Part shown: in pieces, positions 10,427 through 29,905 of the stretch
Layout: the number at the start of each line of letters is the position of its first letter
Numbering within the stretch: the first letter of the stretch is position 1
Virus record (IMG/VR): IMGVR_UViG_3300032282_002316
Location: 1-48,603 of that record
Direction: 5' to 3' (one strand)
DNA length: 48,603 bases
DNA from: a virus
Notes under the pieces: model-generated
Seen by the model: the letters and a program-made list of their open reading frames with translations, nothing else
Databases searched by the model: none
What the model was told of the DNA's origin: nothing
Translations under genes and position numbers: made by a program

Positions 10427-13294
10427 ATGGCAAATTCAAACAGAGTTTTCGTGTCGCCTGGTGTATACACATCAGAAAAAGATTTAACATTTGTAGCTCA
10501 AAGCGTTGGGGTTACAACATTAGGTTTAGTGGGTGAGACTTTAAAAGGTCCCGCATTTGAACCAATTTTAATTGGTAGTTTTGATGAATTTAGGACATAC
10601 TTTGGTAATACGTCTCCGAGTAAAGATGGAAACGGTAATCCTAAATATGAATTACCCTATTTTGCGAAATCATATCTACAAGAATCTAATCAATTATTTA
10701 TAACAAGAATTCTTGGTTTAACTGGTTATAAACCATATAAATCATATGGAATTAAAACACTAGGTGGGGTTGTTGTTGATACTACTTCATATGATACAAC
10801 TACAGATTCTTTGGATCCAACAAGTAGTGGAATTACAGGAAGTACATTTTACCCGGATTTATCAGGTAAGACATCATATGATGGGACTTCAATAACTGAT
10901 TATATGGTTTATACTTTTAGTGGTTATACCACAGGTGAAACTAATAATTGGTTTGTAATCGGTTATGTTGATGATATGGAAATATCGGGTTTAACAGGAA
11001 CTGAAGTTGTTTCACCTTTCACTGGAAAATTGAATGTCGATAACAATAACGGTAAAGAATGGTACAATACATTTGTATCACTTTCTGGTCAAACGGTAGT
11101 TGGTGTTTATTCTTATCTATTTGTTTGGAATGGAGTGTCTTTTGATGTTACACAATATCTTTATGACGCAACAACAAATAACGATTACGATAATATTGTT
11201 ATTGCATCTTTAAGATCTAGAGGTAGATATGTTGGTGAAACATTAACACTTGAAATTGAAAATAACACAAACATATCGATTTCTAATGCATCTGGATTTG
11301 ATTTGAGTTCAAATCCATTAGGTGAGTTTGTTGTTAGTGTAACAGGATTAACAGGAGGTGCGAAAGAATATACATGTTCAATGGACACCACTTCAACAAA
11401 ATATATAACAAAAGTTCTAGGTTCAGAGGTTTTTGATAAACCATATTCAGATTATCCTGTTTATGTTTTTGAAAGTTATTCTAACTTATTAAAAAATGCT
11501 TTTCAACAAGGACTTGTTAGAGGTTTAAGTTTAGATTTATCATATAATTTAGAAGGTGACGAGTTTCTTGGTGAATGGGATACTGCGGCATCTCCTATAG
11601 TTGTTTCTGAAGTTAGGGGTGGTAAAGTAAGTGATCTTTTCCAAGTCGTAACAATTTCAGATGGTGAATCATCTAATAATTTAGTCAAAATAATGATTCA
11701 AAATATCAATTTAGATAGTGGAGAATTTGATTTAATCGTTCGTGATTTTAATGATACTGACGATAACATCGTTGTATTAGAGAAATTTACAAGATGTACG
11801 ATGAATCCTGAATTACCTGGATATGTTGGAAGAAAAATTGGTACATCTGATGGTGAATATGAATTACGTTCAAAGTATATTATGTTGACATTGTCAGATA
11901 ACCACCCGATAGATGCTTTCCCAGCTGGTTTTAAAGGATTTACAAGTAACGATGATTTTAGTGGTTCAACTTTAGGTAGTTTATTTTACAAAACAAAATA
12001 CTTTACCGCAGGTGATACTATATATTACGAATCAGACGGAACACCTGTAACATCTAATGGTGATAAAGTTAGAAAAGTATCTTTAGGTTTATCTAGTCAA
12101 GATGGATTCAAATTCGATTCTGATTTATTTAAATTTAAAGGTAAGAATGCTGGTGGTTCATCATATGGTTTCCATTTATCCGTAAATGCACAATCAATAA
12201 CTGGTTCTACTCCATCTGGTTATCAATTTAAAACTACTTCTTATGATTTAGAAGGAGATAATAAAGGTGATTTATCAAACATTAATTACAGAAAATTCAC
12301 ATTCGCAGTTGCAGGTGGATTTGATGGATGGGATATATACAGAGATGTTAGAACATATGGTGATGGTTATATTTTTGGAAAAAATATATATGTAAGTGGA
12401 CATACTACAAATGGTGGTGTTTTCAGTTCTAGTGTTGGTAACTCCGATTATTATTCATATCTAAAAGGAATTACAACATTCTCCAATCCTGAAGCAGTTG
12501 ATATTAACATATTCTCTACTCCAGGTATTAACTTCTTCGACCATAGTTCATTGGTTGCACAAGCAATTGATATGGTTGAGAATGATAGAGCAGATTCTCT
12601 ATACATAATTAACTCACCGAATCTTACTTCATCTTCTGAAATAGTCGCTAGCTTAGATGATGTGGCGATAGATTCAAACTATTCAGCAACATACTGGCCT
12701 TGGATACAAGTTCGTGATACAGATAACTCAACTCAATTGTATCTACCTCCAACTGGTGAAGTTCTTAAAAACATTGCGTTAACTGATAACGTATCATATC
12801 CATGGTTCGCTGTGGCAGGATACTCAAGAGGATTGGTTAATTCAATAAAAGCATATAAGAAGTTAACATTGGATGAAAGAGATGAATTATACAAAAATAG
12901 AATTAATCCAATTGCAACATTCTCTGATACTGGAACAATTATCTGGGGTAATAAAACCTTACAGGTTAGAGAATCCGCTCTAGATAGAATTAACGTAAGA
13001 AGATTGTTATTAAGAGCTAGAAAATTGATTTCAGCAGTTGCAGTTAGATTGTTATTTGAACAAAATGACGAACAGGTTAGAAATGAATTCTTGAGATTAG
13101 TTAACCCTATTCTTGAATCAATTAAGAAAGAAAGAGGATTGACTGACTTCCGTGTAACAGTATCGAATGATCCAGAAGATATAGATGCAAATACACTTAG
13201 AGGTAAGATTTATATCAAACCTACTCGCTCACTAGAATTTATTGATGTGGAATTCATTATCACACCTACCGGTGCATCTTTTGAGAATATTTAA
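10427..13294 (+). CDS. 18: Tail sheath protein (gp18-like)
   Basis: The protein has 955 residues (T4 gp18 has 659). It opens with the sheath signature VFVSPGVYTSEKDLTF, then VGVTTLGLVGETLKGPAFEP and FDEFRTYFGN. The C-terminal ~200 residues hold the conserved sheath core: an SLYIINSP segment, YPWFAVAGYSRGLV, a DELYKNRINPIATFSDTGTI run, LQVRESALDRINVRRLL, and the last strand FRVTVSN...RGKIYIKPTRSLEFIDVEFII. This strand-handshake core drives contraction. The extra ~300 residues lie in the middle and are beta-rich, likely surface domains. The gene is followed by a strong intrinsic terminator, so it may be expressed as a single unit at a high level. Start at 10427 gives the expected MANSN-type N-terminus. 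Confidence 0.96.
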   Translation: MANSNRVFVSPGVYTSEKDLTFVAQSVGVTTLGLVGETLKGPAFEPILIGSFDEFRTYFGNTSPSKDGNGNPKYELPYFAKSYLQESNQLFITRILGLTGYKPYKSYGIKTLGGVVVDTTSYDTTTDSLDPTSSGITGSTFYPDLSGKTSYDGTSITDYMVYTFSGYTTGETNNWFVIGYVDDMEISGLTGTEVVSPFTGKLNVDNNNGKEWYNTFVSLSGQTVVGVYSYLFVWNGVSFDVTQYLYDATTNNDYDNIVIASLRSRGRYVGETLTLEIENNTNISISNASGFDLSSNPLGEFVVSVTGLTGGAKEYTCSMDTTSTKYITKVLGSEVFDKPYSDYPVYVFESYSNLLKNAFQQGLVRGLSLDLSYNLEGDEFLGEWDTAASPIVVSEVRGGKVSDLFQVVTISDGESSNNLVKIMIQNINLDSGEFDLIVRDFNDTDDNIVVLEKFTRCTMNPELPGYVGRKIGTSDGEYELRSKYIMLTLSDNHPIDAFPAGFKGFTSNDDFSGSTLGSLFYKTKYFTAGDTIYYESDGTPVTSNGDKVRKVSLGLSSQDGFKFDSDLFKFKGKNAGGSSYGFHLSVNAQSITGSTPSGYQFKTTSYDLEGDNKGDLSNINYRKFTFAVAGGFDGWDIYRDVRTYGDGYIFGKNIYVSGHTTNGGVFSSSVGNSDYYSYLKGITTFSNPEAVDINIFSTPGINFFDHSSLVAQAIDMVENDRADSLYIINSPNLTSSSEIVASLDDVAIDSNYSATYWPWIQVRDTDNSTQLYLPPTGEVLKNIALTDNVSYPWFAVAGYSRGLVNSIKAYKKLTLDERDELYKNRINPIATFSDTGTIIWGNKTLQVRESALDRINVRRLLLRARKLISAVAVRLLFEQNDEQVRNEFLRLVNPILESIKKERGLTDFRVTVSNDPEDIDANTLRGKIYIKPTRSLEFIDVEFIITPTGASFENI

Positions 13295-13541: not shown

Positions 13542-15092
13542 TTAATAATTCTTTTCAAATTTTTTATTTCCCGCATCATATATTCTCAAATAACCTAATT
13601 TAGACATTAATTCTTTTTCAGTTGAATTTATATCTAATCCCAATTTAACTAACCTATCTTTTCTAAAATTAAATCTATTATACCTTTTTATTTCATTTTG
13701 CTTTATATAGAAATAATTAGGTTTTGTTATTTTAACTAGTTCAAATCCCATATCAATGTAGGATTTACCATTAAAATATCTATTGTCACAATAAGTCGTA
13801 ATTTTATTGGGTTTAAAATTCTTCTCAAAGTAATTCAATAATTTATTTGCCCCACCAATTATTCTATATTTTAATATACTACAAAGTCTTATCATTTCAT
13901 AATTTCCGTCAATACTTTGTGAACCAAGAGATTTTCGGTTGGAAGAAAAAGACATGACTTGTACCAATTCATTTTCATAAAATAATCCCAATCTTATTTT
14001 TGCTGCGGAATATCCTTGTATATGATATTTCTCAACAAAGTACTTGTATGTGTTATTATCTATTAAATGGACTTGACATTTTCTACCATAAATTGATTCT
14101 CTTTTTGAATTAATTTTATTCAAAACTATTTCTTTTATAATGTCTTTTTTATTTTTCCATTCATCTTCAAAAATTTGAATCAAATTTATCTTTTTAGAAA
14201 TACAGTTTTCCCATTTGGATTTGTGGTAGTCATTATCCAAAAATTTTTCAGAATGATAATATAAACCATTCATTTCAAACCCAATATTCAAAGATTCTAG
14301 ATAAAAATCAATTTCTTTGGGTGCAATCAATGTTCTATTGTGTCTTGTATATGGTACCCCAATTTCATTTAAAAAGTTTTCAAATTCAGATTCAATAGAT
14401 GATTGATACGGTGGAACGCAAGTTTTACAAAGGTCAATATTTTGTTTTGTTCTATAGTTAAAACTGTTATAATCATGAATAGAAACGGTTTCACAATTCG
14501 GACAATTAAAAATAATATCACTATCATTTTTCGATATATTCACATCTTTGTATTTTTCTTCGTATCTGATTTTCATCTTTTTTCGATAATCATCAGTTTT
14601 GGTAAAAAACTTCTCACCGTATTTTTTTTCCATTTGAGACTGTATATAGTCTTTTTTCTCAAAAATATTTTTAACACCATATCGGTCTAAATTTGTCTTT
14701 GATATTTTATCTCTAACATATAAAGATGACATTGGGGACACTCCCCCATATTTTTTAATATTAGTGGACTTAGATTTGTTTATATGTGATTCCGATTTAT
14801 TGGTACATTTAATTGAACAATACTTACCGTAACCCTCATTTAAAGACCTTTTAAACTTCAATTTTTTATTACAAATCGGACATTCCGGAATCTCGATTAA
14901 TTCGTTTACGTAATGGTATAATTGATTAGTAAACGATAATTCCCCCAGTTTATTACTTATTACAAAATCGTCAATGTCCTTTAATACCAGAGGTAAATTT
15001 TTTTTGTAAAAAGTTCTTTTTGTTTTATATCCAGATTTATTTTCTGATAATATAAATTTTTTCAATTCTTCTTTACTTTTTTCCATGACCAT
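13542..15092 (-). CDS. Homing endonuclease, Vsr/EDxHD-like with zinc fingers
   Basis: The protein has 516 residues. The N-terminal part has a treble-clef-like zinc site (CPICNKKLKF...YCSIKC) and repeated 'K...N...YG' DNA-contact motifs (NIKKYGGVSPM, NLDRYGVKNIF). A second CxxC pair follows (CPNC...CKTC). The nuclease core begins SSIESEFENFLNEIG and continues APKEIDFYLESLNIGFEMNG, YHSE, and LIQIFEDEW. This is the arrangement of Vsr-like EDxHD homing enzymes. The C-terminal half (CQVHLIDNNTYKYFVEKYH to YFYIK) is the usual companion domain in such phage proteins. It lies antisense between the sheath and tube genes, a typical free-standing mobile gene position. Start is ATG at 15092; a second ATG two codons later is equally possible. 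Confidence 0.85.
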   Translation of the reverse strand: MVMEKSKEELKKFILSENKSGYKTKRTFYKKNLPLVLKDIDDFVISNKLGELSFTNQLYHYVNELIEIPECPICNKKLKFKRSLNEGYGKYCSIKCTNKSESHINKSKSTNIKKYGGVSPMSSLYVRDKISKTNLDRYGVKNIFEKKDYIQSQMEKKYGEKFFTKTDDYRKKMKIRYEEKYKDVNISKNDSDIIFNCPNCETVSIHDYNSFNYRTKQNIDLCKTCVPPYQSSIESEFENFLNEIGVPYTRHNRTLIAPKEIDFYLESLNIGFEMNGLYYHSEKFLDNDYHKSKWENCISKKINLIQIFEDEWKNKKDIIKEIVLNKINSKRESIYGRKCQVHLIDNNTYKYFVEKYHIQGYSAAKIRLGLFYENELVQVMSFSSNRKSLGSQSIDGNYEMIRLCSILKYRIIGGANKLLNYFEKNFKPNKITTYCDNRYFNGKSYIDMGFELVKITKPNYFYIKQNEIKRYNRFNFRKDRLVKLGLDINSTEKELMSKLGYLRIYDAGNKKFEKNY

Positions 15093-15134: not shown

Positions 15135-15623
15135 ATGGCAGACTTACTAATGAAAATGCCGGTTCCGTATGAACCGAAAAGACAAAATAGATTTATACTT
15201 AGATTTCCATCAAGTCTTGGTATTAACGAATGGTACGTAACCTCATCAAAAAGACCAAGTGCTAAGATAAATTCAGTTGAAATTCCCTTTTTAAACACAT
15301 CAACCTTCGTTGCGGGTAGATTTAACTGGGACACAATTTCGGTTACATTTAAAGACCCAATTGGTCCATCAGCATCACAGGCCCTTATGGAATGGTTCCG
15401 TTTACACGCAGAATCAGTTACTGGTAGAATGGGATATGCTGCGGGATATAAGAAAGACGTTGAATTGGAAATGTTAGACCCAACAGGAGTTGTGGTTGAA
15501 AAATGGATTATACAAGGTTGTTTCTTAACAGATTTAAATTTTGGGACATTAGATTACAATCAAGATGGTTTGGCCACAATTGAAGCAACATTAAGAATGG
15601 ATCGTTGTATACTAGTTTATTAA
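15135..15623 (+). CDS. 19: Tail tube protein (gp19-like)
   Basis: The protein has 162 residues, almost the length of T4 gp19 (163). It shows the tube-protein pattern: PYEPKRQNRFILRFPSSLGI, then YVTSSKRPSAKINSVEIPFL, WDTISVTFKDPIGPSAS, ALMEWFRLHAES, and a final strand TIEATLRMDRCILVY. Hexamers of this protein stack to form the inner tube. It follows the sheath gene as in T4, but a minus-strand homing endonuclease gene separates the two. The start codon is directly preceded by TATAAAT, with no Shine-Dalgarno sequence. About 100 bases of AT-rich sequence with a weak dyad around 15645-15663 separate it from the next gene. Confidence 0.95.
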   Translation: MADLLMKMPVPYEPKRQNRFILRFPSSLGINEWYVTSSKRPSAKINSVEIPFLNTSTFVAGRFNWDTISVTFKDPIGPSASQALMEWFRLHAESVTGRMGYAAGYKKDVELEMLDPTGVVVEKWIIQGCFLTDLNFGTLDYNQDGLATIEATLRMDRCILVY

Positions 15624-15727: not shown

Positions 15728-16477
15728 ATGGATGAATATAAAATAGACCCGTCAATTGCATATGATGTTGTTGAATTACCTAGTAGAGGTATACATTATC
15801 AAAATAATAAAAAATCATTAAGAGTTGCGTATTTAACTGCGGCGGATGAGAATATAATAACATCCCCTAATTTAATACAGTCAAATAACGTAATTCCTGA
15901 ATTATTAAAAAGAAAAATATTAGATAGAGATATTCAATTTGATGAAATTGTTGAGGACGATAAAAGAGCGGTTTTAATATTTCTAAGAAATACATCATTT
16001 GGTACTGAATATACTGTAACATTAACCGACCCCGGAACAGGTAAAGATTTTACAGTTAAGGTAGATTTATCAACATTAAGTTTTAAAGATTTTAATTTAA
16101 AATCAGATAGTAATGGTGAATATCCGTATTTTATGGAAAAAACTAAATCAGACATAACTTTTAAGTTTTTAAATCAAAAACAAGAAAATGAAATTAAAGA
16201 AATTGAAACTAATTGGAATGGTAACGGAGCTCCTCCTATTATAACAAAACAACTTGAGTTTATGATTAAGTCTGTTAAGGGTAATAGGGATATTATGGGT
16301 ATACATAATTTTATTCAAAATTTACCAATCAAAGACTCTCAAGATTTTAGAAAATATGTATTAGAAAATAAACCAAGTATTGATTTTAGTAGAAAAGTAA
16401 TCGCCCCTTCAGGAGAAGAAGTCCAATTTAATATTGGATTTGGGGTTGAGTTTTTTCGCCCTTTCTACGGATTATAA
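15728..16477 (+). CDS. 26: Baseplate hub assembly protein (gp26-like), possible tail assembly chaperone
   Basis: The protein has 249 residues from ATG 15728. A TTG six codons upstream (15710) is in frame but less likely. The N-terminus has the gp26 family pattern: YDVVELPSRGIHYQN, then LRVAYLTAADENIITSPNLI, and PELLKRKILDRDI. The centre has LTDPGTGKDFTVKVDLS and TFKFLNQKQENEI. The C-terminus ends FGVEFFRPFYGL. In T4-like phages this gene is followed by a small gene 51 that overlaps it, and the same seems true here. The position between tube and tape measure is where other tailed phages carry frameshifting tail assembly chaperones. T4 gp26 is 208 residues. Function is from family knowledge; the frameshift idea is listed as a finding. 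Confidence 0.82.
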   Translation: MDEYKIDPSIAYDVVELPSRGIHYQNNKKSLRVAYLTAADENIITSPNLIQSNNVIPELLKRKILDRDIQFDEIVEDDKRAVLIFLRNTSFGTEYTVTLTDPGTGKDFTVKVDLSTLSFKDFNLKSDSNGEYPYFMEKTKSDITFKFLNQKQENEIKEIETNWNGNGAPPIITKQLEFMIKSVKGNRDIMGIHNFIQNLPIKDSQDFRKYVLENKPSIDFSRKVIAPSGEEVQFNIGFGVEFFRPFYGL

Positions 16478-16607
16478 AAAAAATCAACTTACTGAAATTC
16501 TTTTTTTAATTAAAAGGGGATTTACATATAATGATGTATTGACAATGCCAGTCTATGTTAGAAGGTACTATATTGACTTTCTTATGGAATTATCTAAAGG
16601 AAAGTAA
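16434..16607 (+). CDS. 51: gp51-like small segment in the +1 frame, overlapping the gp26-like gene
   Basis: The frame is open from 16401 to the stop at 16605-16607 and has no ATG before its conserved part. It encodes LSFFALSTDYKKNQLTEILF, then LIKRGFTYNDVLTMPVYVRR and YYIDFLMELSKGK. The 'F.Y.D....MP..xRR.fid.L' pattern resembles small gp51-type baseplate hub assembly proteins and the T part of frameshifted tail chaperones. Expression needs either a TTG start (16434, 16440 or 16446) or a +1 shift from the gp26-like frame, for which TTT|C at 16454-16457 lets one Phe tRNA slide from UUU to UUC. AGGAG lies at 16411, rather far from the TTGs. The listed start is the first TTG and is tentative. Confidence 0.6.
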   Translation: MDLGLSFFALSTDYKKNQLTEILFLIKRGFTYNDVLTMPVYVRRYYIDFLMELSKGK

Positions 16608-18650: not shown

Positions 18651-21600
18651 ATGCCAAGTTATTTAGATTTCGATAATACAAAAAGTTTTAGGAATTTCAT
18701 TTTAGGAAAAACACTACAAAGTCCTGAAGGTCCTCAAAATTCATCTCAAAGTACATATACTTACCAAAATCTAAGTAATTTATCAAATACTGACCCTGGA
18801 TCAGTAGATTCAAATAGACAAGACGACTTAAACAAGGGTTTATTTGGAAATACATATAAACCAACCGAACAAGTAACGATATATGACGAATTACAAGTAA
18901 TTCCAAGAATAAATAATTTAAGGTTATATTCCGATAATAGTGGTAACCCATATTTTAATTATACAAATCACACTATGATTGGTATAATTGGTGGGAATGA
19001 CAAATATGAAAATGAATCTGAATTATTTAAATTCGCAGCATATAATATAAAAAATAATTCAAGGGGACCTTTTTTCGCTAGAATACAACAAAATTTAGAA
19101 GCGGCTACTGTTGGTAGATTTAGATTATTAGACGCTTTAACTGGAAACATCGCAACTGCAACAAATATCGTTAGTGGAAGAGAACCACTAATTGAATCTA
19201 ACAATAGAATAACCGTAGCAAAAACCGCACCTGGTAAAGCTATCGATTTAATAGAAAGAATAACTGGTGTTGATATACCAATGTCACAAATACCAGGGGA
19301 TTATCTTACCAACCCATTAAATCCAATTAATTATAGACCAGTCCCGGATAGTACTGCAGGTGCAATAGGTCAAGATATGACTGGTGCATTAGGTTCATTA
19401 ATTGGAATACAGAGACGACCATTACCCACAAGAAAACCATCTGATTTGTTTATCGAATATATGGGTAGTGGACCAAAACAAAAGTTATTTAATTTATTAT
19501 CATTATCAACTTACGCACCTGATTACACAACTACCGCAAGATCACAACAATCTTCAAAAATATTTTCATTTGCCGACCAATTTGCTCAAGGAATAAAAAC
19601 ATTGTTAGATACGGAAGCACCAAAAGGAAAGTCATATATTGGCGATGATAGAGGTGTAGATGTTATTGATGTAATGACCGATTCAAACGGTATAGTTATA
19701 AGGAGTAATTACTATTTAAGTTTATTATTTGACCCAATACAATCCCAATTATTTGAGAGAAGAAGCAATATTAGTGAGGGTGGACAAATAAGTGGTAAAT
19801 TAACTTGGGTAGGACAAAATTCAAAAAATAAATTAGGAGCAAATAATGATCAGTATAGTTCACAAAGTTCAAAACTTCAAGATTCATTATCAACAAAATA
19901 TGGATTTAGAGAAGATTCTTTATTAGGATATACCCAAGCAATTTTAAATGCAATGCCAAAAGATGGGCAAGCAAGAACACATATTGGTAATGTTATTGAT
20001 CAAACATCTAGAGTTTTTAAAGAAGGTGAATCATTTTTATCTAGAGGATCTGCAGTTAAATACGTAGATAAATTTGGTGTTGAGAGTGGTGTTGAATATT
20101 GCAGAACATGGACAAAAGACAGGCCATATTTTTCATTATCGGATACAATGAAAAAAGGAATGAACTTAAGAAAATTTGAATCATCCGTAATGTCAAATCC
20201 GTGGAACTTAAATATTGGGCCAATGTCAAATGGTAATAAAGGATTTGGTAATTCAACTAATATTTCTGATAAAGATTATAAGTTTGGGGTGGACTCAAGT
20301 GGAAATAGTTTTTATGCTAAAAAATATATGTTTTCAATTGAAAACTTGGCTTGGAGAACATCATCAACACCTGGATTCACTGTATTAGATTTACCATTTT
20401 GTGAGAGAGGTCCAAATGGTGGAAGAGTTATGTGGTTTCCTCCATATGATTTAAAAGTTAATGAAAGTAATTCTGCTAAATGGGAAGAAAATACATTCTT
20501 AGGTAGACCTGAACCGATATACACATATCAAAATACATCAAGGTCAGGACAAATAAGTTTTAAAGTTGTTGTTGACCATCCAAGTATTTTAAATTTATTA
20601 GTCAGAGAATATTTTAAAAACATGTCGGATGAAGAAGCTGATAATTATATAAATGCATTTTTTGCTGGATGCGAAGAACTAGATTTTTATGATTTAATTA
20701 GAAGATTCACAACAATAGACGCGAGTGACGCGGAATTAATCACTCAGTATCTAAACGCGGGTAAAAAAACTGAAGAAGAAATTAAAAAATATAAAACACT
20801 TGTCCAACCTGTAACTGATAATAATCCAGGAAATAATGATAAGGTATCAGTTATACCAAATGAAAATAGTAACACTTCGTCACAAAAAAATATTAGTGTA
20901 AGACTAAATTATGATGATCCACAACCAAATGGATTTAAAGATGATACAACATCGGTAACATCTAATTTAGATTATTCAAAACTTTATAATTCGTATATTA
21001 CTAAAAAAGATAGTTATAAAAATGAATTAGGTTCAATAATACCTAATTTATTAACCGACATCACTTCTAGTGGAATTCAAGATTTAAAAACATATTTTTA
21101 TGGTGCAATTCCTAGTGATGATTTAGTTATCGGTGATATTGTTAATTACCAAAAACAAAAATTAGGTGATTATTTTGATACTTTATCAATACAGTATAAC
21201 AAATTCACAGGAATAACAAATACATTATTAAATGATTTATCAGGTAAAACAGTACAAACAATAACATTAGAAATAGATTCAGGCACCTCATCAATCGCCT
21301 CACCCGATTTAAATAGAAAGTTATCATTAAGAAGAAGTCATAGTGTCATAAGAGACATGTTTACTAAAATATCGAATGGTAAAACCCCAACAATAAAATG
21401 GAAAACATTAGAAGAAGTTAATGCTCTTGACAAAAATTCACCAATTGAAATTAATCAAGAATATGATTTAAAAGATTTTGGGTGGGAAATAAATGGTGGA
21501 AAATTGATAGTTAAATCAAAAAATTACGGAGAAGACTCAACAGGGACGGGTGTTGACACAGATTGTAAAAATAGAGATTTTAAAAAATACACAAGATTAA

Positions 21601-23465
21601 ATGTTGTTTCCCCTATTTCTTTCTATTGTAGAGTAAGTCAAGTTAGACTAAGTTATAATACAACATCAGAGACAATATCACCAGTACCAACTTCACTACC
21701 AGAAAATAATTCATTAAAAACAACGATAGTTGAAGATGGAAAATTTACAATTGAAAAAATTGCAAAAAAACCACCAATTGATGTTATGAAAAGAATCATC
21801 ATGAAAACACTTTCAGAATGTTATTATTTTAAAGTTTTGGAAAATGATTCACCTATTGTATTTGATTCACTTAGAGAAAAATTAAGATATTTTCACCCTG
21901 GATTTCATTCAACAACACCAGAAGGATTAAATTCTAGACTTACATTTTTACAACAATGCATAAGACCGGGAGACACAATTCCAATTAAAGGGGACAATAA
22001 GAGTTCCGATATAAACGCATCCAATTCGACTTTTGGACCACCACCAATTTGTGTTTTAAGAATTGGTGATTTTTATCACTCTAAAGTAGTGATAAGAGAT
22101 GTGAATTTTACATTTGATGAAACAACATGGGATTTAAATCCCGAAGGAATTGGTGTACAACCAATGATTGCGAATGTATCATTACAAGTTAGTTTCATCG
22201 GAGGACAAGGTTTAGAAAAGCCGGTTGAGAGACTTCAGAATGCATTATCATCTAATTTTTATGCTAACACAGAAATGTATGATGAAAGATCAGAATCTAC
22301 TAATACAAAAATTAACGGAAAAGATGCTACTGTTTTTACAAAAGAAATATTAGAAAATTTTAATAAATCAGCAATAAAAGAACCAGATTATATTAAAGGT
22401 GACAACTCATCAAAAATATCTGAAGAAAATTATATTGGAACATTGTCTAATTCAACATTAGATTATACAAATCAGATAAATGAAATTTATACAGAAGTTA
22501 ATAATTATTTTGAAAAATATGACTCAGTATTTAATACGTTATATAAATCATATGGTTTAAAGATAGCTTCTTTATTATTGTCACCAACTTATCGAACTAT
22601 AAATCAATACGACGTATACACATCAACTAGTATGAGTCCTGGCGATACTATAAATATTTTTGGACTATATGGTAAGGGAAAAGAATTACCCGTATTGATT
22701 AGAGGAATAAGAATTGCGATGGATAATCAATTAGAATTAGAGTATAAAAATGTAAATCTTCCAAAAATTTTTAATTTTGATAAAGAATTAAGTAATAAAA
22801 AATTACCAAGAACAAATGAATTATTATATAGAGAAATTAAAAAAATTTTACAAGAAATTTTTGACCGTCTTTCCGAATTAAATTCATTAACTTATTTTGA
22901 GGAAAATAGAAATAAATTAATTAAATCAATTGATTCATTAAATTTTGTTGTTAAATATGGTAAAGACGGTAAATTAGGAAAAGATAACACTAAATCAACA
23001 TCAGCATTGTTATCCGGATTTACATACAATTTATTATATAATGAATATAGTGATTGTTTTGATAATATTAAAAACAACACACCAAAAATGTATGATAAAT
23101 TGGACGAATCAATTAATTTTATAAATCTAAATATTAACCCAACAATAGATACAAATACATTTTCTGAAATCCTTTCTTATTTCTTAATAGATAATTTTAA
23201 TAGAATTATGGCATTATTTTATAATGAATACGATGAAAAAACTAATGAAAAATTAAATAATAGATTAAAAGATTTTATCGCAAAACCAAAAACCATTAAT
23301 TTAAAATTTAAAAATTTACGTAATAGAAAAAATGGTAAAACAATAAAATTCCCGATATCAGTCGAAGAAAATATTACAGATAATACAATGTTAGATGATT
23401 TGAAAAAATTAAACACCACACCAACTTTAGTAAAAGAAAAATTAAATTTTTATAAAATAAAATAA
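18651..23465 (+). CDS. Large baseplate/tail structural protein, 1604 residues, with a degenerate OmpA-like region
   Basis: I do not recognise the whole protein. The first ~470 residues are specific to this phage type (RGPFFARIQQNLEAATVGRF, LDALTGNIATATNIVSGREP). A beta-rich block around residues 560-650 (YMFSIENLAWRTSSTPGF, ISFKVVVDHPSILNLLV) and one around 1080-1190 (VLRIGDFYHSKVVIRDVNF, ANVSLQVSFIGGQGLEKPV) look like tail tube/baseplate folds. Between them, about residues 865-1005, EIDSGTSSIASPDLNRKLSL with RRSHSVIRDMF, then NYGEDSTGTG and SFYCRVSQVRLSY, resembles a degenerate OmpA C-terminal peptidoglycan-binding domain. The C-terminal end (MSPGDTINIFGLYGKG, IRIAMDNQLELEYKN) may be another small beta domain. 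Position after the tape measure and before the gp53-like gene argues for a hub or tube-initiator role. Confidence 0.75.
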   Translation: MPSYLDFDNTKSFRNFILGKTLQSPEGPQNSSQSTYTYQNLSNLSNTDPGSVDSNRQDDLNKGLFGNTYKPTEQVTIYDELQVIPRINNLRLYSDNSGNPYFNYTNHTMIGIIGGNDKYENESELFKFAAYNIKNNSRGPFFARIQQNLEAATVGRFRLLDALTGNIATATNIVSGREPLIESNNRITVAKTAPGKAIDLIERITGVDIPMSQIPGDYLTNPLNPINYRPVPDSTAGAIGQDMTGALGSLIGIQRRPLPTRKPSDLFIEYMGSGPKQKLFNLLSLSTYAPDYTTTARSQQSSKIFSFADQFAQGIKTLLDTEAPKGKSYIGDDRGVDVIDVMTDSNGIVIRSNYYLSLLFDPIQSQLFERRSNISEGGQISGKLTWVGQNSKNKLGANNDQYSSQSSKLQDSLSTKYGFREDSLLGYTQAILNAMPKDGQARTHIGNVIDQTSRVFKEGESFLSRGSAVKYVDKFGVESGVEYCRTWTKDRPYFSLSDTMKKGMNLRKFESSVMSNPWNLNIGPMSNGNKGFGNSTNISDKDYKFGVDSSGNSFYAKKYMFSIENLAWRTSSTPGFTVLDLPFCERGPNGGRVMWFPPYDLKVNESNSAKWEENTFLGRPEPIYTYQNTSRSGQISFKVVVDHPSILNLLVREYFKNMSDEEADNYINAFFAGCEELDFYDLIRRFTTIDASDAELITQYLNAGKKTEEEIKKYKTLVQPVTDNNPGNNDKVSVIPNENSNTSSQKNISVRLNYDDPQPNGFKDDTTSVTSNLDYSKLYNSYITKKDSYKNELGSIIPNLLTDITSSGIQDLKTYFYGAIPSDDLVIGDIVNYQKQKLGDYFDTLSIQYNKFTGITNTLLNDLSGKTVQTITLEIDSGTSSIASPDLNRKLSLRRSHSVIRDMFTKISNGKTPTIKWKTLEEVNALDKNSPIEINQEYDLKDFGWEINGGKLIVKSKNYGEDSTGTGVDTDCKNRDFKKYTRLNVVSPISFYCRVSQVRLSYNTTSETISPVPTSLPENNSLKTTIVEDGKFTIEKIAKKPPIDVMKRIIMKTLSECYYFKVLENDSPIVFDSLREKLRYFHPGFHSTTPEGLNSRLTFLQQCIRPGDTIPIKGDNKSSDINASNSTFGPPPICVLRIGDFYHSKVVIRDVNFTFDETTWDLNPEGIGVQPMIANVSLQVSFIGGQGLEKPVERLQNALSSNFYANTEMYDERSESTNTKINGKDATVFTKEILENFNKSAIKEPDYIKGDNSSKISEENYIGTLSNSTLDYTNQINEIYTEVNNYFEKYDSVFNTLYKSYGLKIASLLLSPTYRTINQYDVYTSTSMSPGDTINIFGLYGKGKELPVLIRGIRIAMDNQLELEYKNVNLPKIFNFDKELSNKKLPRTNELLYREIKKILQEIFDRLSELNSLTYFEENRNKLIKSIDSLNFVVKYGKDGKLGKDNTKSTSALLSGFTYNLLYNEYSDCFDNIKNNTPKMYDKLDESINFINLNINPTIDTNTFSEILSYFLIDNFNRIMALFYNEYDEKTNEKLNNRLKDFIAKPKTINLKFKNLRNRKNGKTIKFPISVEENITDNTMLDDLKKLNTTPTLVKEKLNFYKIK

Positions 23466-23466
23466 T

Positions 23467-23793
23467 ATGAGTAGAAATTATTTAGATAGATATCAGTTTT
23501 TTATTGAAGACGGTAATTTTAGGATTGTTCCAGGAATTGAGATTCCACCCAAAGGAACGGATAAAGTTCTACAATATAAAAAAGGTAAAACTAGATTAGA
23601 TAAAATATCACAAGATTTTTATGGGACACCCGTATTTGGATGGTTAATATTACTTGCAAATCCATCAGCAGGGAGTATTGAGTTTGAAATACCAGATAAT
23701 TATGTTCTAAGAATACCATTTCCATTAATTTCCTCTTTACAAGATTACAAAAGAGGGGTAGAATTATATAGTTTATACTATGGTGAGAACTAA
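23467..23793 (+). CDS. 53: Baseplate wedge protein gp53-like (LysM-like fold)
   Basis: The protein has 108 residues. It contains the LysM-like pattern of gp53-type baseplate proteins: KGKTRLDKISQDFYGTPVFG, then WLILLANPSAG, and a closing strand FEIPDNYVLRIPF. T4 gp53 (196 residues) joins the wedges around the hub. This version is the core domain with short tails. It starts one base after the stop of the preceding gene and its end overlaps the next start by 14 bases, so the three large baseplate genes form one tightly coupled unit. The alternative is a gpX/LysM-type tail protein; both would sit in the baseplate. Confidence 0.82.
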   Translation: MSRNYLDRYQFFIEDGNFRIVPGIEIPPKGTDKVLQYKKGKTRLDKISQDFYGTPVFGWLILLANPSAGSIEFEIPDNYVLRIPFPLISSLQDYKRGVELYSLYYGEN

Positions 23794-26700
23794 ATTAGAT
23801 GATAATGAAAACATTTTAGTTAAAGTAGATCAAAATAACTTAATTTATATTGATCCAAATAGTGTTATTGACAATGATGGAAATATCCAACAAAGAAACG
23901 TAAAACAAGAAAATTTAGTTATTTACGTAAATTTGGAAGCGGATATAATACCTAGGTCAATTCTAGCGTCAACAAATGATTCAAATACGTTAACCTCTAT
24001 AGCTAAAGGAACTTTAAATTTTTTAAAAAATCAAGATGGTAAAGATTATGACACTACTTGGACAAATTCATTTAATGGTAGTGATTCATTAGGAAATTCA
24101 AAAAACGAAAATAGTTTTTTTGTAAAAAACGAAGATTTTGATAGTAGTGGACAAACTTTTGGTATTGAAGGTATTCAAATAGTAATAAGGGGATTTAATG
24201 CTATTCCAACAATAAACATAAATTTTGTTGATGTTAGGGGTAAAACATTATTTGAATCACCAGAAAATTCACCATATCAATCATTCTTCCATATACCTTG
24301 GCCAATATATTATTTAACAGTAAAAGGGTTTTATGGTAAAGCTATAAGATACAGACTTCATTTAGTAAAATGGAGTTCTAGATTTAGTGAGACGACGGGA
24401 AATTTTGAGATATCAACAACATTTGTTGGGTCAACATTTGCTTATCTAAGTGATATTCCCTTGAAAGGTATTTTAAATGCACCATATATGTATCTTATCG
24501 AAAATACTTCCGATACTGATACAAATAATAATACAAATAAAACAGTAAGAAAAGTATCGAGGTCCTCAAGAGGATATTCAATTTTAAAATCGGTATATTC
24601 TGAGTATAGACAAAAAGGATTTATACCTAAAGATTTCCCTGTAAAAACATTAAGAGAATTAATTGTTGCTGCCGAGACTTTAGATAAAATTTTAGAATTA
24701 CAAATTTTAGACCACAAAGTAGATAAAAATTTATTTGTTGGATTAAGAGATTTTGAAAAACGAATTGAGGATTTTAGAACATCAGTCGATTCGTGGGCAA
24801 TAAAAAACTTATCAAAAATCTATGTTACCGATTATTTTGATGAAAACAACCCAGTAAAATATTATGAATTGTCGGCTAAGGGAACTACTAATGTTAGTGA
24901 TTTAATATATGGACAACAAAATGGTTCATTAAATTTTTTATTAGAAAAGTATAAAAAAGAAATAGAAAACAGTTCGTTGTTTAATGATAAAATAATTAAA
25001 ACTGCGGGTGTTGAATTTAGTAAAGAAAAGATTGTCACATCATCTATAAAAGACATAAATTTAAATAAATATGTTAAAAATTCTAACCAACAATATCAAG
25101 TAGCTATTGAATTAATTTTTGATGACATAAATAAGATAATAACGACATATAGCATCCAGAAAGAAAAACTTATAAAAGTCATCGAAGAACAAATGAACAA
25201 CATTATTAAGGACAAAACCAATAAAGATAGTATTGGTTTTGAACCGACAATACGAAATATCGTGGCAGTAATTTTAGCAAATGCTGACACATATATAAGA
25301 TTATTAAAAGAAGTTCATTTTAATGCATTTAAAAAGGCGGAAGAAAGAAAAAGTAAATTAAAAGGATTATCTAATGAAACAAAAGGAGACAACTCAATTT
25401 ATCCGTGGCCAGAAATAAAAAAATATGCGGAAGGTGAAAAAAGAAAAGTAATAGCGTATCCTGGTGATGCCGATTTAATAAAACAATTAGGTTCAGACGA
25501 TATTAGTTTGTGGCCTGAAGTTGACTTTATTGAAAATTATATCGAGATATCTACAAATAGAATTGATAGTAACGTAGATAAAGAAGGTGGTGTTAATAAT
25601 CTCACTTTTATTTTTGATGATGACGTTGACCCAAATAATATAATAAATATAAGTACACTTTCTGTTGTTGATGAAACCCAACCATACATTGACAAAACAC
25701 CATCCTCATTTTTATACGAAATTTGGGAGAGAGCGCTAAATTTCACAACATTAGACTCTTTTAATAATCTAACCTTAAACGAAATGGCTTCTGCCGAATT
25801 TAAAACAATTCAAGAAGTTATTAAAGACAATGATGAACTAATTGCAATTTTAAAAAATAAAATAAAAAGTGAAACAGATTTAAGAGATTTTCTTAAATCA
25901 TATTCACCATTTGAAAGATACCCGTATTACCAAGATCAAATACCTACCATACCTTATTTAAAATCGGCATTAGAATATCCGTATAAGATTGAACAATATA
26001 TTGTAGACCCATTAAAGTTATCGGCACAAACAACAACACCAATTAAAAAGAATGCGATATATGACTTTACTAATTTAAAAAAACAACTTTCAGACTATAA
26101 ACCCGAGTCGTATAGAAAAAATATTTATCCGTATAACTCAACTACTTATCTTTCTTATATAAATAAGGATAATTTTACGGATAATGAATTAACTTTTAAT
26201 AACATATATGAAATAGATAATGCCGAGGGATTTATAAGAACACCAATAAATGGACAAGATTGGGTTAAGGAAGAATATAAAACAATTTCATCCAATAATG
26301 AATTAAAAGAAATCAAACTTCTTGGACAAAAATTAAAGTTTGAAACAACAGAGGTCAATATATTAAACACCCCATATTTCCATAAACAACTTTTTAACGA
26401 TTTTAATAAGATAGGAATAACTTCAAAATATACTGGTTCCGCGTATTTGTTACTTAATTCTTTACCATTTTATGATTTGGAAGATAAAATTAAATTTAGT
26501 GATGATAAATCCAGAAAAGAAGTTAGAATTTCATCATTGTTTACCGAAATTGGTGCAAGTCATTACATTCCGTATCATTTAATACTTAAATGGGGGTCAA
26601 TTTATCATAGATATAAAAAATATTTATTAGATGGTGAGGATATTATAGATTCTTTTTTAACGACCGGAAACACCACAACAGACATTGATGGATATTTGTT

Positions 26701-29700
26701 TTTTAATAACTATGACACCAATTATGATAATACATTTTTTCAAATTGGTAGTGGGGGAGAAACTATTACATACAAATATGCTGTTGCACCAACTCCAACC
26801 CCATCTATATCCATAACACCATCAATTAGTATTAGTCCTAGTATAACTCCTACCATTAGTGTAAGTCCGACTAATACACTATCGGCAACACCTAGCGCAA
26901 GTGTTAATAGTTCACCATCACCTACACCATCAAATACATTAACACCTACACCAACTCCATCAATAACAATCAGTTCAACACCAATACCATCTATAACACC
27001 AACACCTTTAAATTTAGATGATATTGGAATACATCCATTTTATGATGCCATATTTCATCAAATAATAAATGGATATAGTCACTACGCAGTACAATCCGGA
27101 AACACTTCCTTTTCAAAAAATGTTGATGATAAAGCAATAATTGCGAGAAAAAGAATTGAATCAAATGGAATAAGATATTGGACTAGTTTTGTTGATAATT
27201 CAAAATTTGATTCATTAGATTTAAGATATACGTGTTTACCATCAGATGGTGGTAATAAATTTATAAATAAAAAAACAGTCCAAAGTAACACATCTAGTAC
27301 ACAACAAATAAGTAATGAGGATTATCCGACAGCATTACAAAATAATTTTAGACCTTATTGGGTTGATGATGATTATATAAACAATAAGTTTAGCGGTCAA
27401 ACATTTCCATCATATGACCAATATAATAGAAGTTTAAACACAACAGATAGAACAATTGACAATCAATTTTCATTAACAGGTAACTACAGAAAAGTTATAG
27501 ATTTAATTGGAACATTTAGTCCAAAAATTTTAGATGAATTTGAATCAATGTTTATTGATTTTTCAAATGAAAAAATAACACAAACATATGAATCAACAAA
27601 TTATAATTCATATCCATCGGTTAAGTATACAAAATTTCAAGATTTATTAAAAGAAATATGTAGTGTTGAAAAAATGGATAAAGATTTACTTTCTTATCCA
27701 AGTACAGATACGATGATTGAAGAAATTAAATTAAGACAATATAAAAAAGTAAATGAATTTGTTTCTAAAAATATAGTATCTAATTATAATTTAATAAAAT
27801 TAACATTAGGTAATCCTAAAGAAATTAATTTAAATACATTTTATGGATTTTCTGAAATGGATGATGTTAACACATTCACATATAATGAATTTGATAACTC
27901 ACAAGTAACAGATGAAACATTAAAATTAATAAAACTATATATCGGGGAAGATATTGACGGATACTATCAAGATTTCTTTAGTTCAAATAATGTTGAGTTA
28001 AGTGAAGAAAATATATTATTGTTTAGACCATTAATATTAATTTATGGCGGTTATATAAAATCTGGCGGAGTAAATAGTAAAACTGATTTCCAAGAATATA
28101 TTAAAAATAATATTTTATTAAAAAATATAGACCAAAGTAGTGGAGTTTCCGGGTCAACATCCAGACTTTCTTTTTTCTTAAATCGATTAATTTCTAAATT
28201 AAATAAAGAATTAGAATTAACTACTCCAACACAATCATTAAAAATCACCTCAGGATATAATAATATTGGTACAAAAATAGAATTATATAACTTTTTTAAA
28301 TCATTTAACGATAAGTGGATTGCGGGAAATTCAATAGGTCAAAGATTATTAATCGAAGAATTTTTATTCTTAGATAAAGCTAATAGAGATATTGGTGATA
28401 AATTTTATTTGAATTTAGATAGATTAATTGATTTAAAAGACCCTAGAAATGATAAGATAGACTTGTATAGTGTAATTGGTTCGATATTAATAAAAGATAC
28501 GGGACTAGATATGAGAGCTCTACCCGCATATGTTAATTTCTATGGAACCAATATTAGTAATAAAACAAAAATAACTCCTTCACGTAAAGTTGCTAAAAAT
28601 TTATTTGGTACATTCTTAGATGTAGATTATGAAGAATCGTCCCCGAAAGTAATATTACAATTAGCTGGACAATCATCAAAACATTTAGCGGACACTAATA
28701 AAAAAACATATAAATTTTTAGATGATAGTTTTGATTTTTCTAATGTAAATAATCACCCATTAATTATAACTACCCCTGAAGTTTTTAATACAGGTGATTT
28801 ATATAAATCAAATAGAGTTGTTGCGTTTGAAGTTAGTTTTGGTGACCAAACTCAGGGAATATTTAAAGGAATACAATTAGACCAAAATAGCATAAAAAAT
28901 ACTTCTGAGGCGTTTGTTGTTTTAGAAAATTTAGCAAGATCAGAATCGGGAGCGGCGACATATAACGTAGACATAGGATTGTATGAATATTTTAGACAAG
29001 CATCATATACTTGTGAAGTAACTTGTATGGGTAATGTCATGATTCAACCAACTATGTTCTTTTACCTAAAAAATGTACCAATGTTTAGGGGGTCGTACTG
29101 GATTACTGAAGTATCACATAATATTAAGAATAATAATATTGTAACAACATTTAAAGGATCAAGGATACCTTATGAATCATTACCAGACCCTAAAGATTCA
29201 TTTACCTCAAGTTATAGAACATTATTTGATAAGTTAATGCAAAAAGCAATTGCAATAATTGACGAACAATTTAAATCATTGACACCAACAACAATTAGTA
29301 TATCTAATACTAGTGGAACAAATGTTTATACTGACCCAGGAGCAAGTCAAGGAGAAGATTTATCTAAAAATATTGTACAATCATTTGGAATTACAGAATT
29401 TGGAATTCCATTTAATGGTGCACTTAATGAGAAATACATACAAAAAGTAAAATATACTTTACCGGGTAATTCAAATACTGAATGGTTAAGAGTTAGGGTT
29501 GTTGAAATGGGTGGTACCAAACTACCACTTTCTGACAGTACAATATTTGGTGTTATTAGTAATTTACCAAATACAGAAAAATTATTGTGGTCTGAAATAA
29601 AAAATATAAGTGAAAATGTTGATTTTTATAGTACAAAATTTTTAATTAATCGTCCAGAAGGGTACTCCGAAGAAAAAATCAGAAATTCTATAACCACATT

Positions 29701-29905
29701 TATTAATCCAAGGTTAAACCCACCAAAACCTATTATTGTTGATAGCACATTATCTGGAAGTGTGGGTCAAAGAATCGTTACTGGTCCAATAGGGTTAAAT
29801 GGGGGCATAAATGAATATTCTATGTCCATGTCAAAGTCCTTAATGTTGAAATTAAAAGTAAATGATGGTGATGTTGTTTATTTTCAAATGCATCTAAAAA
29901 ATTGA
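23780..29905 (+). CDS. Giant baseplate hub-like protein, 2041 residues, with an internal Pro/Thr/Ser-rich linker
   Basis: The N-terminal ~200 residues have a beta-rich hub-like fold (FGIEGIQIVIRGFNAIPTIN, FVDVRGKTLFES, IPWPIYYLTVKGFYGKAIRY). A long helical and mixed region follows. Residues ~1003-1077 are a low-complexity linker of PTPSISITPS type. Residues ~1590-1830 hold a hub signature: VVAFEVSFGDQTQGIFKGIQ, YTCEVTCMGNVMIQPTMFFY, and MFRGSYWITEVSHNIKNNNI. The last resembles the domain of gp27/gpD hub proteins that closes with '.G.Y.Itev.H'. No lysozyme or peptidase motif was seen. ATG at 23780 overlaps the previous gene by 14 bases; a GTG follows immediately. T4 gp27 is only 391 residues, so this is much expanded. 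Hub role is inferred from the C-terminal region and position. Confidence 0.75.
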   Translation: MVRTKLDDNENILVKVDQNNLIYIDPNSVIDNDGNIQQRNVKQENLVIYVNLEADIIPRSILASTNDSNTLTSIAKGTLNFLKNQDGKDYDTTWTNSFNGSDSLGNSKNENSFFVKNEDFDSSGQTFGIEGIQIVIRGFNAIPTININFVDVRGKTLFESPENSPYQSFFHIPWPIYYLTVKGFYGKAIRYRLHLVKWSSRFSETTGNFEISTTFVGSTFAYLSDIPLKGILNAPYMYLIENTSDTDTNNNTNKTVRKVSRSSRGYSILKSVYSEYRQKGFIPKDFPVKTLRELIVAAETLDKILELQILDHKVDKNLFVGLRDFEKRIEDFRTSVDSWAIKNLSKIYVTDYFDENNPVKYYELSAKGTTNVSDLIYGQQNGSLNFLLEKYKKEIENSSLFNDKIIKTAGVEFSKEKIVTSSIKDINLNKYVKNSNQQYQVAIELIFDDINKIITTYSIQKEKLIKVIEEQMNNIIKDKTNKDSIGFEPTIRNIVAVILANADTYIRLLKEVHFNAFKKAEERKSKLKGLSNETKGDNSIYPWPEIKKYAEGEKRKVIAYPGDADLIKQLGSDDISLWPEVDFIENYIEISTNRIDSNVDKEGGVNNLTFIFDDDVDPNNIINISTLSVVDETQPYIDKTPSSFLYEIWERALNFTTLDSFNNLTLNEMASAEFKTIQEVIKDNDELIAILKNKIKSETDLRDFLKSYSPFERYPYYQDQIPTIPYLKSALEYPYKIEQYIVDPLKLSAQTTTPIKKNAIYDFTNLKKQLSDYKPESYRKNIYPYNSTTYLSYINKDNFTDNELTFNNIYEIDNAEGFIRTPINGQDWVKEEYKTISSNNELKEIKLLGQKLKFETTEVNILNTPYFHKQLFNDFNKIGITSKYTGSAYLLLNSLPFYDLEDKIKFSDDKSRKEVRISSLFTEIGASHYIPYHLILKWGSIYHRYKKYLLDGEDIIDSFLTTGNTTTDIDGYLFFNNYDTNYDNTFFQIGSGGETITYKYAVAPTPTPSISITPSISISPSITPTISVSPTNTLSATPSASVNSSPSPTPSNTLTPTPTPSITISSTPIPSITPTPLNLDDIGIHPFYDAIFHQIINGYSHYAVQSGNTSFSKNVDDKAIIARKRIESNGIRYWTSFVDNSKFDSLDLRYTCLPSDGGNKFINKKTVQSNTSSTQQISNEDYPTALQNNFRPYWVDDDYINNKFSGQTFPSYDQYNRSLNTTDRTIDNQFSLTGNYRKVIDLIGTFSPKILDEFESMFIDFSNEKITQTYESTNYNSYPSVKYTKFQDLLKEICSVEKMDKDLLSYPSTDTMIEEIKLRQYKKVNEFVSKNIVSNYNLIKLTLGNPKEINLNTFYGFSEMDDVNTFTYNEFDNSQVTDETLKLIKLYIGEDIDGYYQDFFSSNNVELSEENILLFRPLILIYGGYIKSGGVNSKTDFQEYIKNNILLKNIDQSSGVSGSTSRLSFFLNRLISKLNKELELTTPTQSLKITSGYNNIGTKIELYNFFKSFNDKWIAGNSIGQRLLIEEFLFLDKANRDIGDKFYLNLDRLIDLKDPRNDKIDLYSVIGSILIKDTGLDMRALPAYVNFYGTNISNKTKITPSRKVAKNLFGTFLDVDYEESSPKVILQLAGQSSKHLADTNKKTYKFLDDSFDFSNVNNHPLIITTPEVFNTGDLYKSNRVVAFEVSFGDQTQGIFKGIQLDQNSIKNTSEAFVVLENLARSESGAATYNVDIGLYEYFRQASYTCEVTCMGNVMIQPTMFFYLKNVPMFRGSYWITEVSHNIKNNNIVTTFKGSRIPYESLPDPKDSFTSSYRTLFDKLMQKAIAIIDEQFKSLTPTTISISNTSGTNVYTDPGASQGEDLSKNIVQSFGITEFGIPFNGALNEKYIQKVKYTLPGNSNTEWLRVRVVEMGGTKLPLSDSTIFGVISNLPNTEKLLWSEIKNISENVDFYSTKFLINRPEGYSEEKIRNSITTFINPRLNPPKPIIVDSTLSGSVGQRIVTGPIGLNGGINEYSMSMSKSLMLKLKVNDGDVVYFQMHLKN
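26786..27009 (+). repeat. Low-complexity Pro/Thr/Ser/Ile linker in the hub-like protein
   Basis: About 75 codons encode imperfect TPSISITPS, SISPSITPT and SPTPSNTLTPTP units. The style matches the stalk of the fibre-like protein at the left edge, although the DNA units differ and show no perfect tandem copies here. Confidence 0.75.

Follow-up and report, generated by a model that had tools for sequence, protein, structure and literature searches.

A probable +1 frameshift at a conserved UUU_CGN site links two tail assembly chaperone products in relatives of phage T4

In the IMG/VR virus record IMGVR_UViG_3300032282_002316, of which a stretch of 48,603 bases was analysed (hereafter, the window), a 249-aa gene next to the tail tube gene is overlapped at its end by a 50-residue open frame in the +1 register. 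The question raised by this locus is whether the two frames are joined into one protein, and by what means. A sequence-only reading had proposed that a Phe tRNA moves from UUU to UUC at a TTTC in the overlap, giving a fusion of about 292 residues, with a TTG start for the second frame as the alternative. From comparison with several hundred relatives, we consider it highly likely that the gene yields two tail assembly chaperones, a short TAC-N (249 aa) and a long TAC-NC (292 aa), via a +1 slip of tRNA-Phe. The features discussed are collected in Table 1.

Table 1 Features of the tail assembly chaperone (TAC) locus and its neighbours, in window coordinates.
Feature	Position	Strand	Basis or remark
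Tail sheath gene	10427..13294	+	phrog_23 tail sheath, E 2e-63; upstream of tube
Tail tube protein gene	15135..15623	+	phrog_4542 tail tube, E 7.4e-26; upstream neighbour of 249-aa gene
Frame-0 gene, short product TAC-N, gp26-like, 249 aa	15728..16477	+	PF12322, phrog_150, AlphaFold2/Foldseek
Predicted long product TAC-NC, 292-aa fusion (...GVEFF-ALSTDYKK...)	15728..16607	+	Translation across shift
Candidate upstream hairpin	16403-16408 (GCCCCT) and 16441-16446 (TGGGGT)	+	5 pairs in window itself
TTG, candidate alternative start of +1 ORF (rejected)	16434..16436	+	Not kept in relatives
Predicted shift site TTT_TTT_CGC	16451..16459	+	E-site TTT (TTC tolerated), P-site TTT, A-site CGC
Slippery TTTC, tRNA-Phe UUU to UUC	16454..16457	+	Sequence; step fits all TTT_CGN relatives
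TAC-C coding segment, +1 frame, 50 aa	16455..16604, stop 16605-16607	+	pN/pS, AlphaFold2, residue pattern
Probable tape measure gene, 654 aa	16628..18592	+	Position and gene order; downstream neighbour of TAC gene

The gene order of tail tube, TAC gene and 654-aa gene was kept in all 116 loci compared, and the position between the tube and the putative tape measure gene is the one expected of a gpG/gpGT-like chaperone gene. The 654-aa product is probably the tape measure protein, judged mainly by its position; it had no family match in profile searches and no significant match to the annotated tape measure of Flavobacterium phage immuto. Two large ORFs further downstream (1604 aa, 18651-23465; 2041 aa, 23780-29905) were also without a family match. 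A 516-aa antisense ORF (DUF7487; 13542-15092, minus strand) lies between the sheath and tube genes; it is absent from most relatives, one relative (L001) has a copy at the same place with 57% identity, and it looks like a homing-endonuclease-type insert. Elsewhere in the window, the gene for the ribonucleotide reductase large subunit (39408-42923) is split by an intein that carries Hint and LAGLIDADG domains. The window has a GC content of 29.6%, no tRNA genes were found in it, and a Shine-Dalgarno-like motif precedes only 1 of its 28 genes. The near absence of these motifs and a relative that infects Flavobacterium together suggest a host in the phylum Bacteroidota.

By profile, the N-domain matches the T4-type tail assembly chaperone family, both as Pfam PF12322 (T4_baseplate; E 2.6e-5, 24.5 bits, exactly at the curated cut-off) and as phrog_150 (baseplate hub; E 3.4e-6), and intermediate family members score far better. 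TAC-N and TAC-C were modelled as two separate parts of the fusion. With Foldseek, the AlphaFold2 model of TAC-N (pLDDT 89) retrieved T4-type hub assembly and baseplate hub proteins (E 1e-8 to 1e-15) and a gp26, and a fold search against solved structures returned no match. That of TAC-C (pLDDT 92.6) comprises three helices; among viral models it resembles a 'baseplate protein' of Klebsiella phage KPV15 at a TM-score of 0.87, with a non-significant E-value. The residue pattern Y..L..EI..L...GF...D...MP...R of TAC-C is conserved over 75 diverse relatives.

The 249-aa gene ends in GAG TTT TTT CGC CCT TTC TAC GGA TTA TAA, whereas the +1 frame reads FALSTDYKKNQLTEILFLIKRGFTYNDVLTMPVYVRRYYIDFLMELSKGK. 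Several statements of the sequence-only reading were borne out directly by the letters of the window: TTTC stands in frame with the 249-aa gene, no ATG precedes the 50-residue segment in frame (only TTG codons and one ATA do), and joining the frames as TTT TTT followed by GCC gives exactly 292 residues. A 57-codon ORF in the +1 frame is unremarkable alone at 29.6% GC, and the window has many chance ORFs.

Relatives were more informative. In a first scan of viral contigs, 80 loci had the same 249-aa frame, and all 80 keep TT[TC]_TTT_CGN_CCT_TTC_TAY followed by a +1 segment of 49-51 residues, with a single exception that is ended by the contig edge. A wider scan yielded 121 readable loci from close relatives (56 after dereplication), and TTY_TTT_CGN and the +1 segment are kept in every one of the 121. 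Over the 32 codons 3' of the frame-0 stop in the 56 dereplicated relatives, the +1 frame has no stops in any sequence and a pN/pS of 0.37, whereas the other two frames are interrupted in 53 and 56 sequences and have pN/pS of 1.14 and 1.02, respectively. Because the +1 frame is open with a low pN/pS, unlike the other frames, the segment is, by this measure, a protein under purifying selection.

Codon choice at the junction is constrained as well. Among the 56 dereplicated relatives, the P-site codon is TTT in all and the first Phe codon is TTT in 55, so that the pair is fixed as TTT TTT although TTC is synonymous and used elsewhere in the genome family. The A-site arginine codon varies at its third base only (CGC, CGT, CGA, CGG); CGC itself accounts for 4 of 14,479 codons in the window (0.28 per 1000). 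This pattern of Phe-codon and CGN conservation fits a P-site slip from UUU to UUC, and a P-site UUU, an A-site CGN and a conserved +1 frame were found together at 126 TTT_CGN loci. The proposal that a +1 shift at TTTC joins the frames is thus supported by conservation of both the site and the +1 frame in relatives, and very probably holds.

One rival holds that the +1 segment forms a small gene of its own, with TTG 16434 or another weak codon as its start. TTG codons do lie in frame upstream in the window, 8 of the 121 close relatives have an upstream ATG, and two products are annotated in cyanophages and some isolates, the cyanophage 'gp51', a short C-terminal piece only, being annotated with its own ATG. 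However, in 30 of the 121 the +1 frame, from its last stop before the shift site up to that site, contains none of ATG, GTG, TTG, CTG, ATT, ATC or ATA, mostly owing to a TAG (within GTA GAG in frame 0) two codons before it, and the ALST.YK residues just after the site stay conserved even in these start-less relatives. Start positions are not conserved in the family, the first in-frame ATG usually lies 28-30 codons inside the segment, no Shine-Dalgarno motif is present, and the synonymous conservation of TTT TTT would not be expected of a separate gene. The predicted fusion would contain the junction peptide GVEFFALSTDYK. Because so many relatives are without any start and still conserve the residues after the site, independent initiation cannot, by this comparison, account for the whole family. 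The TTG start is accordingly rejected, and a separate gene appears improbable.

Three other routes would lead to the same or nearly the same protein. RNA polymerase slippage on the T run, leaving the mRNA one T short, would give an identical product and could draw on T6 in the window and T7 in many wider relatives, but the longest T run is at most 4 in 65 of 334 sites and the frames join there unchanged, as at TTC TTT CGC in one relative (L002) and TTT CTT TGG in the clade of Flavobacterium phage immuto, which leaves this route about as improbable as a separate gene. A real shift of -2 instead of +1 would enter the same frame with one extra residue; it is very improbable, since a tRNA could not re-pair at -2 on TTC TTT CGC or CTT TGG, whereas +1 re-pairing from UUU to UUC or from CUU to UUU fits nearly all sites. 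Homopolymer frameshifts are common errors, and a single sequencing or assembly indel could have split one gene, but isolate genomes and hundreds of contigs with assemblies of their own show the same split; the relatives refute this explanation, whose probability is negligible.

The predicted +1 slip extends beyond the close relatives. Further scans, run with three more distant members, raised the number of analysed loci to 344, and in about 330 of these a long +1 frame is again open from the Phe-Phe point; the P-site codon there is TTT or CTT and the next base T or C. The sites are TTT_TGG (n = 156), TTT_CGN (n = 126), CTT_TGG (n = 38), TTT_TAC (n = 6) and a few others, and the codon 3' of the A site is nearly always CCN. 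Wider relatives have TGG or TAC as the A-site codon, so stimulation by a rare arginine codon is not general. Isolates with such sites include Microcystis phage Mel-JY01 (TTT_TGG), Flavobacterium phage immuto (TTT_CTT_TGG), Streptococcus phage vB_SagM-GXN1 (TTT_CGT) and, less clearly, Listeria phage LIS04; their annotations omit the +1 segment or list a separate hypothetical protein. Relatives L138-L141 have a different junction, GTT TTC CTC AAT ATC, at which the +1 frame is open although both TTT_CGN and TTT_TGG are missing.

In some relatives the Phe-Phe point, here T_TTT_TTC or T_TTT_TTT, is followed by the segment in the -1 frame instead. These are cyanophages P-SSM2, S-SM1 and P-HM1, and likewise Vibrio phage vB_ValM_R11Z and Pseudomonas phage pf16. 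The arrangement in Stenotrophomonas phage RAS14 resembles -1 too. On this evidence, the direction of the shift appears to have changed within one gene family. In two further loci, L340 (TTC TTG TAT) and L346 (TTC CTT TGG), the open frame was classed as -1, not +1, which may reflect misassembly or a real switch.

The RNA upstream of the site may also contribute. Synonymous change is suppressed over codons 221-249 (the last ~28 codons), an effect that sets in long before the overlap does, and the codon for Gly-239 is GGG in 56 of 56 relatives. CCCC (16404-16407) and GGGG (16442-16445) are invariant and could pair. The closing pair of this candidate hairpin is A-U in 23, G-C in 9 and unpaired in 9 of 45 sequences, so that covariation concerns one pair with two-sided changes in 9 sequences, and the window is mismatched at that pair. 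The pattern is suggestive of a CCCC/GGGG hairpin upstream of the shift site. An invariant TC-GGAGA also lies upstream, and the conservation of all three motifs exceeds the protein's needs. Shine-Dalgarno-like stimulation by GGGG or AGGAG is unlikely, given that such a motif occurs in 1 of 28 genes. Downstream, folding of the window stretch was no better than that of shuffled sequences (z -1.0).

In the mechanism that we favour, most ribosomes would stay in frame 0 and produce TAC-N, while some would pause at UUU_UUU_CGC because CGC is almost unused in the genome. The P-site tRNA-Phe could then re-pair one base forward, from UUU to UUC, the better match for a GAA anticodon, and reading would resume in the +1 frame with GCC CUU UCU, so that the three helices of the 50-aa TAC-C are appended to give TAC-NC. 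If the analogy with lambda gpG/gpGT holds, the tape measure protein of the adjoining gene would be coated by TAC-N, TAC-C would recruit tail tube subunits, and the ratio of short to long product would be set by the efficiency of the shift. What the comparison of relatives itself points to is a +1 frame that is translated, that is not independently startable in many of them and that adjoins a conserved site.

Phage T4 realises the same pair of products differently. T4 gp26 and gp51 are both full-length PF12322/phrog_150 proteins, and gp51 is ~50 residues longer at its C-terminus. That extension aligns collinearly but weakly with TAC-C (hhalign P 5e-4; compared alone, 13% identity and a probability of 30%, low because the segment is short), and gp26 ends in ...KEFFELL, just beyond the shift point of the relatives. 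Because both are full-length family members, we regard gp51 as the counterpart of the whole long form and not of the C-segment alone, and gp26 and gp51 as divergent paralogues standing for the short and long products. The T4 chaperones and those of the window phage belong to one family, with a shared N-domain and probably a small helical C-terminus on the long form, but T4 uses two genes and the window phage one gene with a predicted +1 shift. The sequence-only reading had described this locus as a gp26/gp51 junction and, should the shift be real, as the T4-lineage version of gpG/gpGT; the second part stands, whereas the junction picture fails for T4 itself, in which genes 26 and 51 are divergently transcribed and are not neighbours in a shifted register. 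The gp26/gp51 pairs of the cyanophages, Schizotequatrovirus and pf16 share with the window the gene pair, the Phe-Phe join and the C-segment pattern, but their C-segment is in the -1 frame, after a T_TTT_TTC or T_TTT_TTT that stands just before the stop, which would call for a -1 shift; an ATG occurs near the beginning of the segment in some of them.

Lambda gpG/gpGT likewise adjoins the tape measure gene and makes a short and a long product by frameshifting near the end of the short frame, a feature that the window phage shares on comparative evidence, and the TAC gene occupies the place that G and T have in lambda, where they lie between V and H. The lambda shift is -1 on a lysine site, and the likeness is one of position and of a short plus a long product; the fold search of TAC-N against solved structures gave no match that would extend it to homology. 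The site itself has its nearest likeness in PA-X of influenza A and in amalgaviruses (PMC3498833; PMC9559581), which also combine a P-site UUU_C and an A-site CGN with a +1 shift. Slippage on UUU_C before a rare CGN codon is an established route to +1 (PMC3498833): at UCC_UUU_CGU of PA-X, the slip on UUU_C is aided by the rare CGU, and a wider class of such sites was predicted (Firth et al., PMC3498833). Those are eukaryotic RNA viruses, however, and PA-X has UCC in the E site. The present site has UUU there, belongs to a DNA phage and is preceded by a fixed GGGG. In bacteria, +1 P-site slippage also occurs in Listeria phage PSA (CCC_UGA) and RF2 (CUU_UGA), in different genes; the CTT_TGG sites of the immuto clade resemble CUU_U.

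The tail assembly chaperones of T4-like phages were reportedly identified by Vladimirov, Gautam and Davidson in 2022 (Virology 566:9-15). One passage of PMC10885494 cites that work for T4-like phages with one short and one fused long gene, and a passage of PMC12846349, which counts poly-T slippery sequences among -1 signals, cites it for these. Thus gp26/gp51 as the T4 chaperones are already published, and the system is known in kind. In the literature searched, which excludes Vladimirov et al. (2022), we found no description of a +1 shift or a UUU_CGN site for T4-like chaperones, and it is possibly the +1 direction and this site that remain new.

More tentatively, and with slightly more doubt than belief, we propose that a large lineage of phages related to T4, whose hosts are probably Bacteroidota that do without Shine-Dalgarno pairing, has a bacterial form of the UUU_CGN +1 class predicted by Firth et al., aided by the upstream CCCC/GGGG hairpin, and that the solution at the Phe-Phe point has switched among +1, -1 and, in T4, gene duplication. 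G-T frameshifting has been described as conserved in long-tailed phages 'except T4' (Atkins et al. 2016, PMC5009743); the present comparison indicates that T4's cousins kept a shift. The +1 version would be common to hundreds of environmental relatives, mostly unannotated, and in present annotations the C-terminal domain is often absent or given a wrong start. For one putative +1 site in bacteria, natural variants are now at hand by the hundreds. The same codons would serve a +1 or a -1 shift depending on lineage, and the two genes of T4 would be paralogues that provide the two products.
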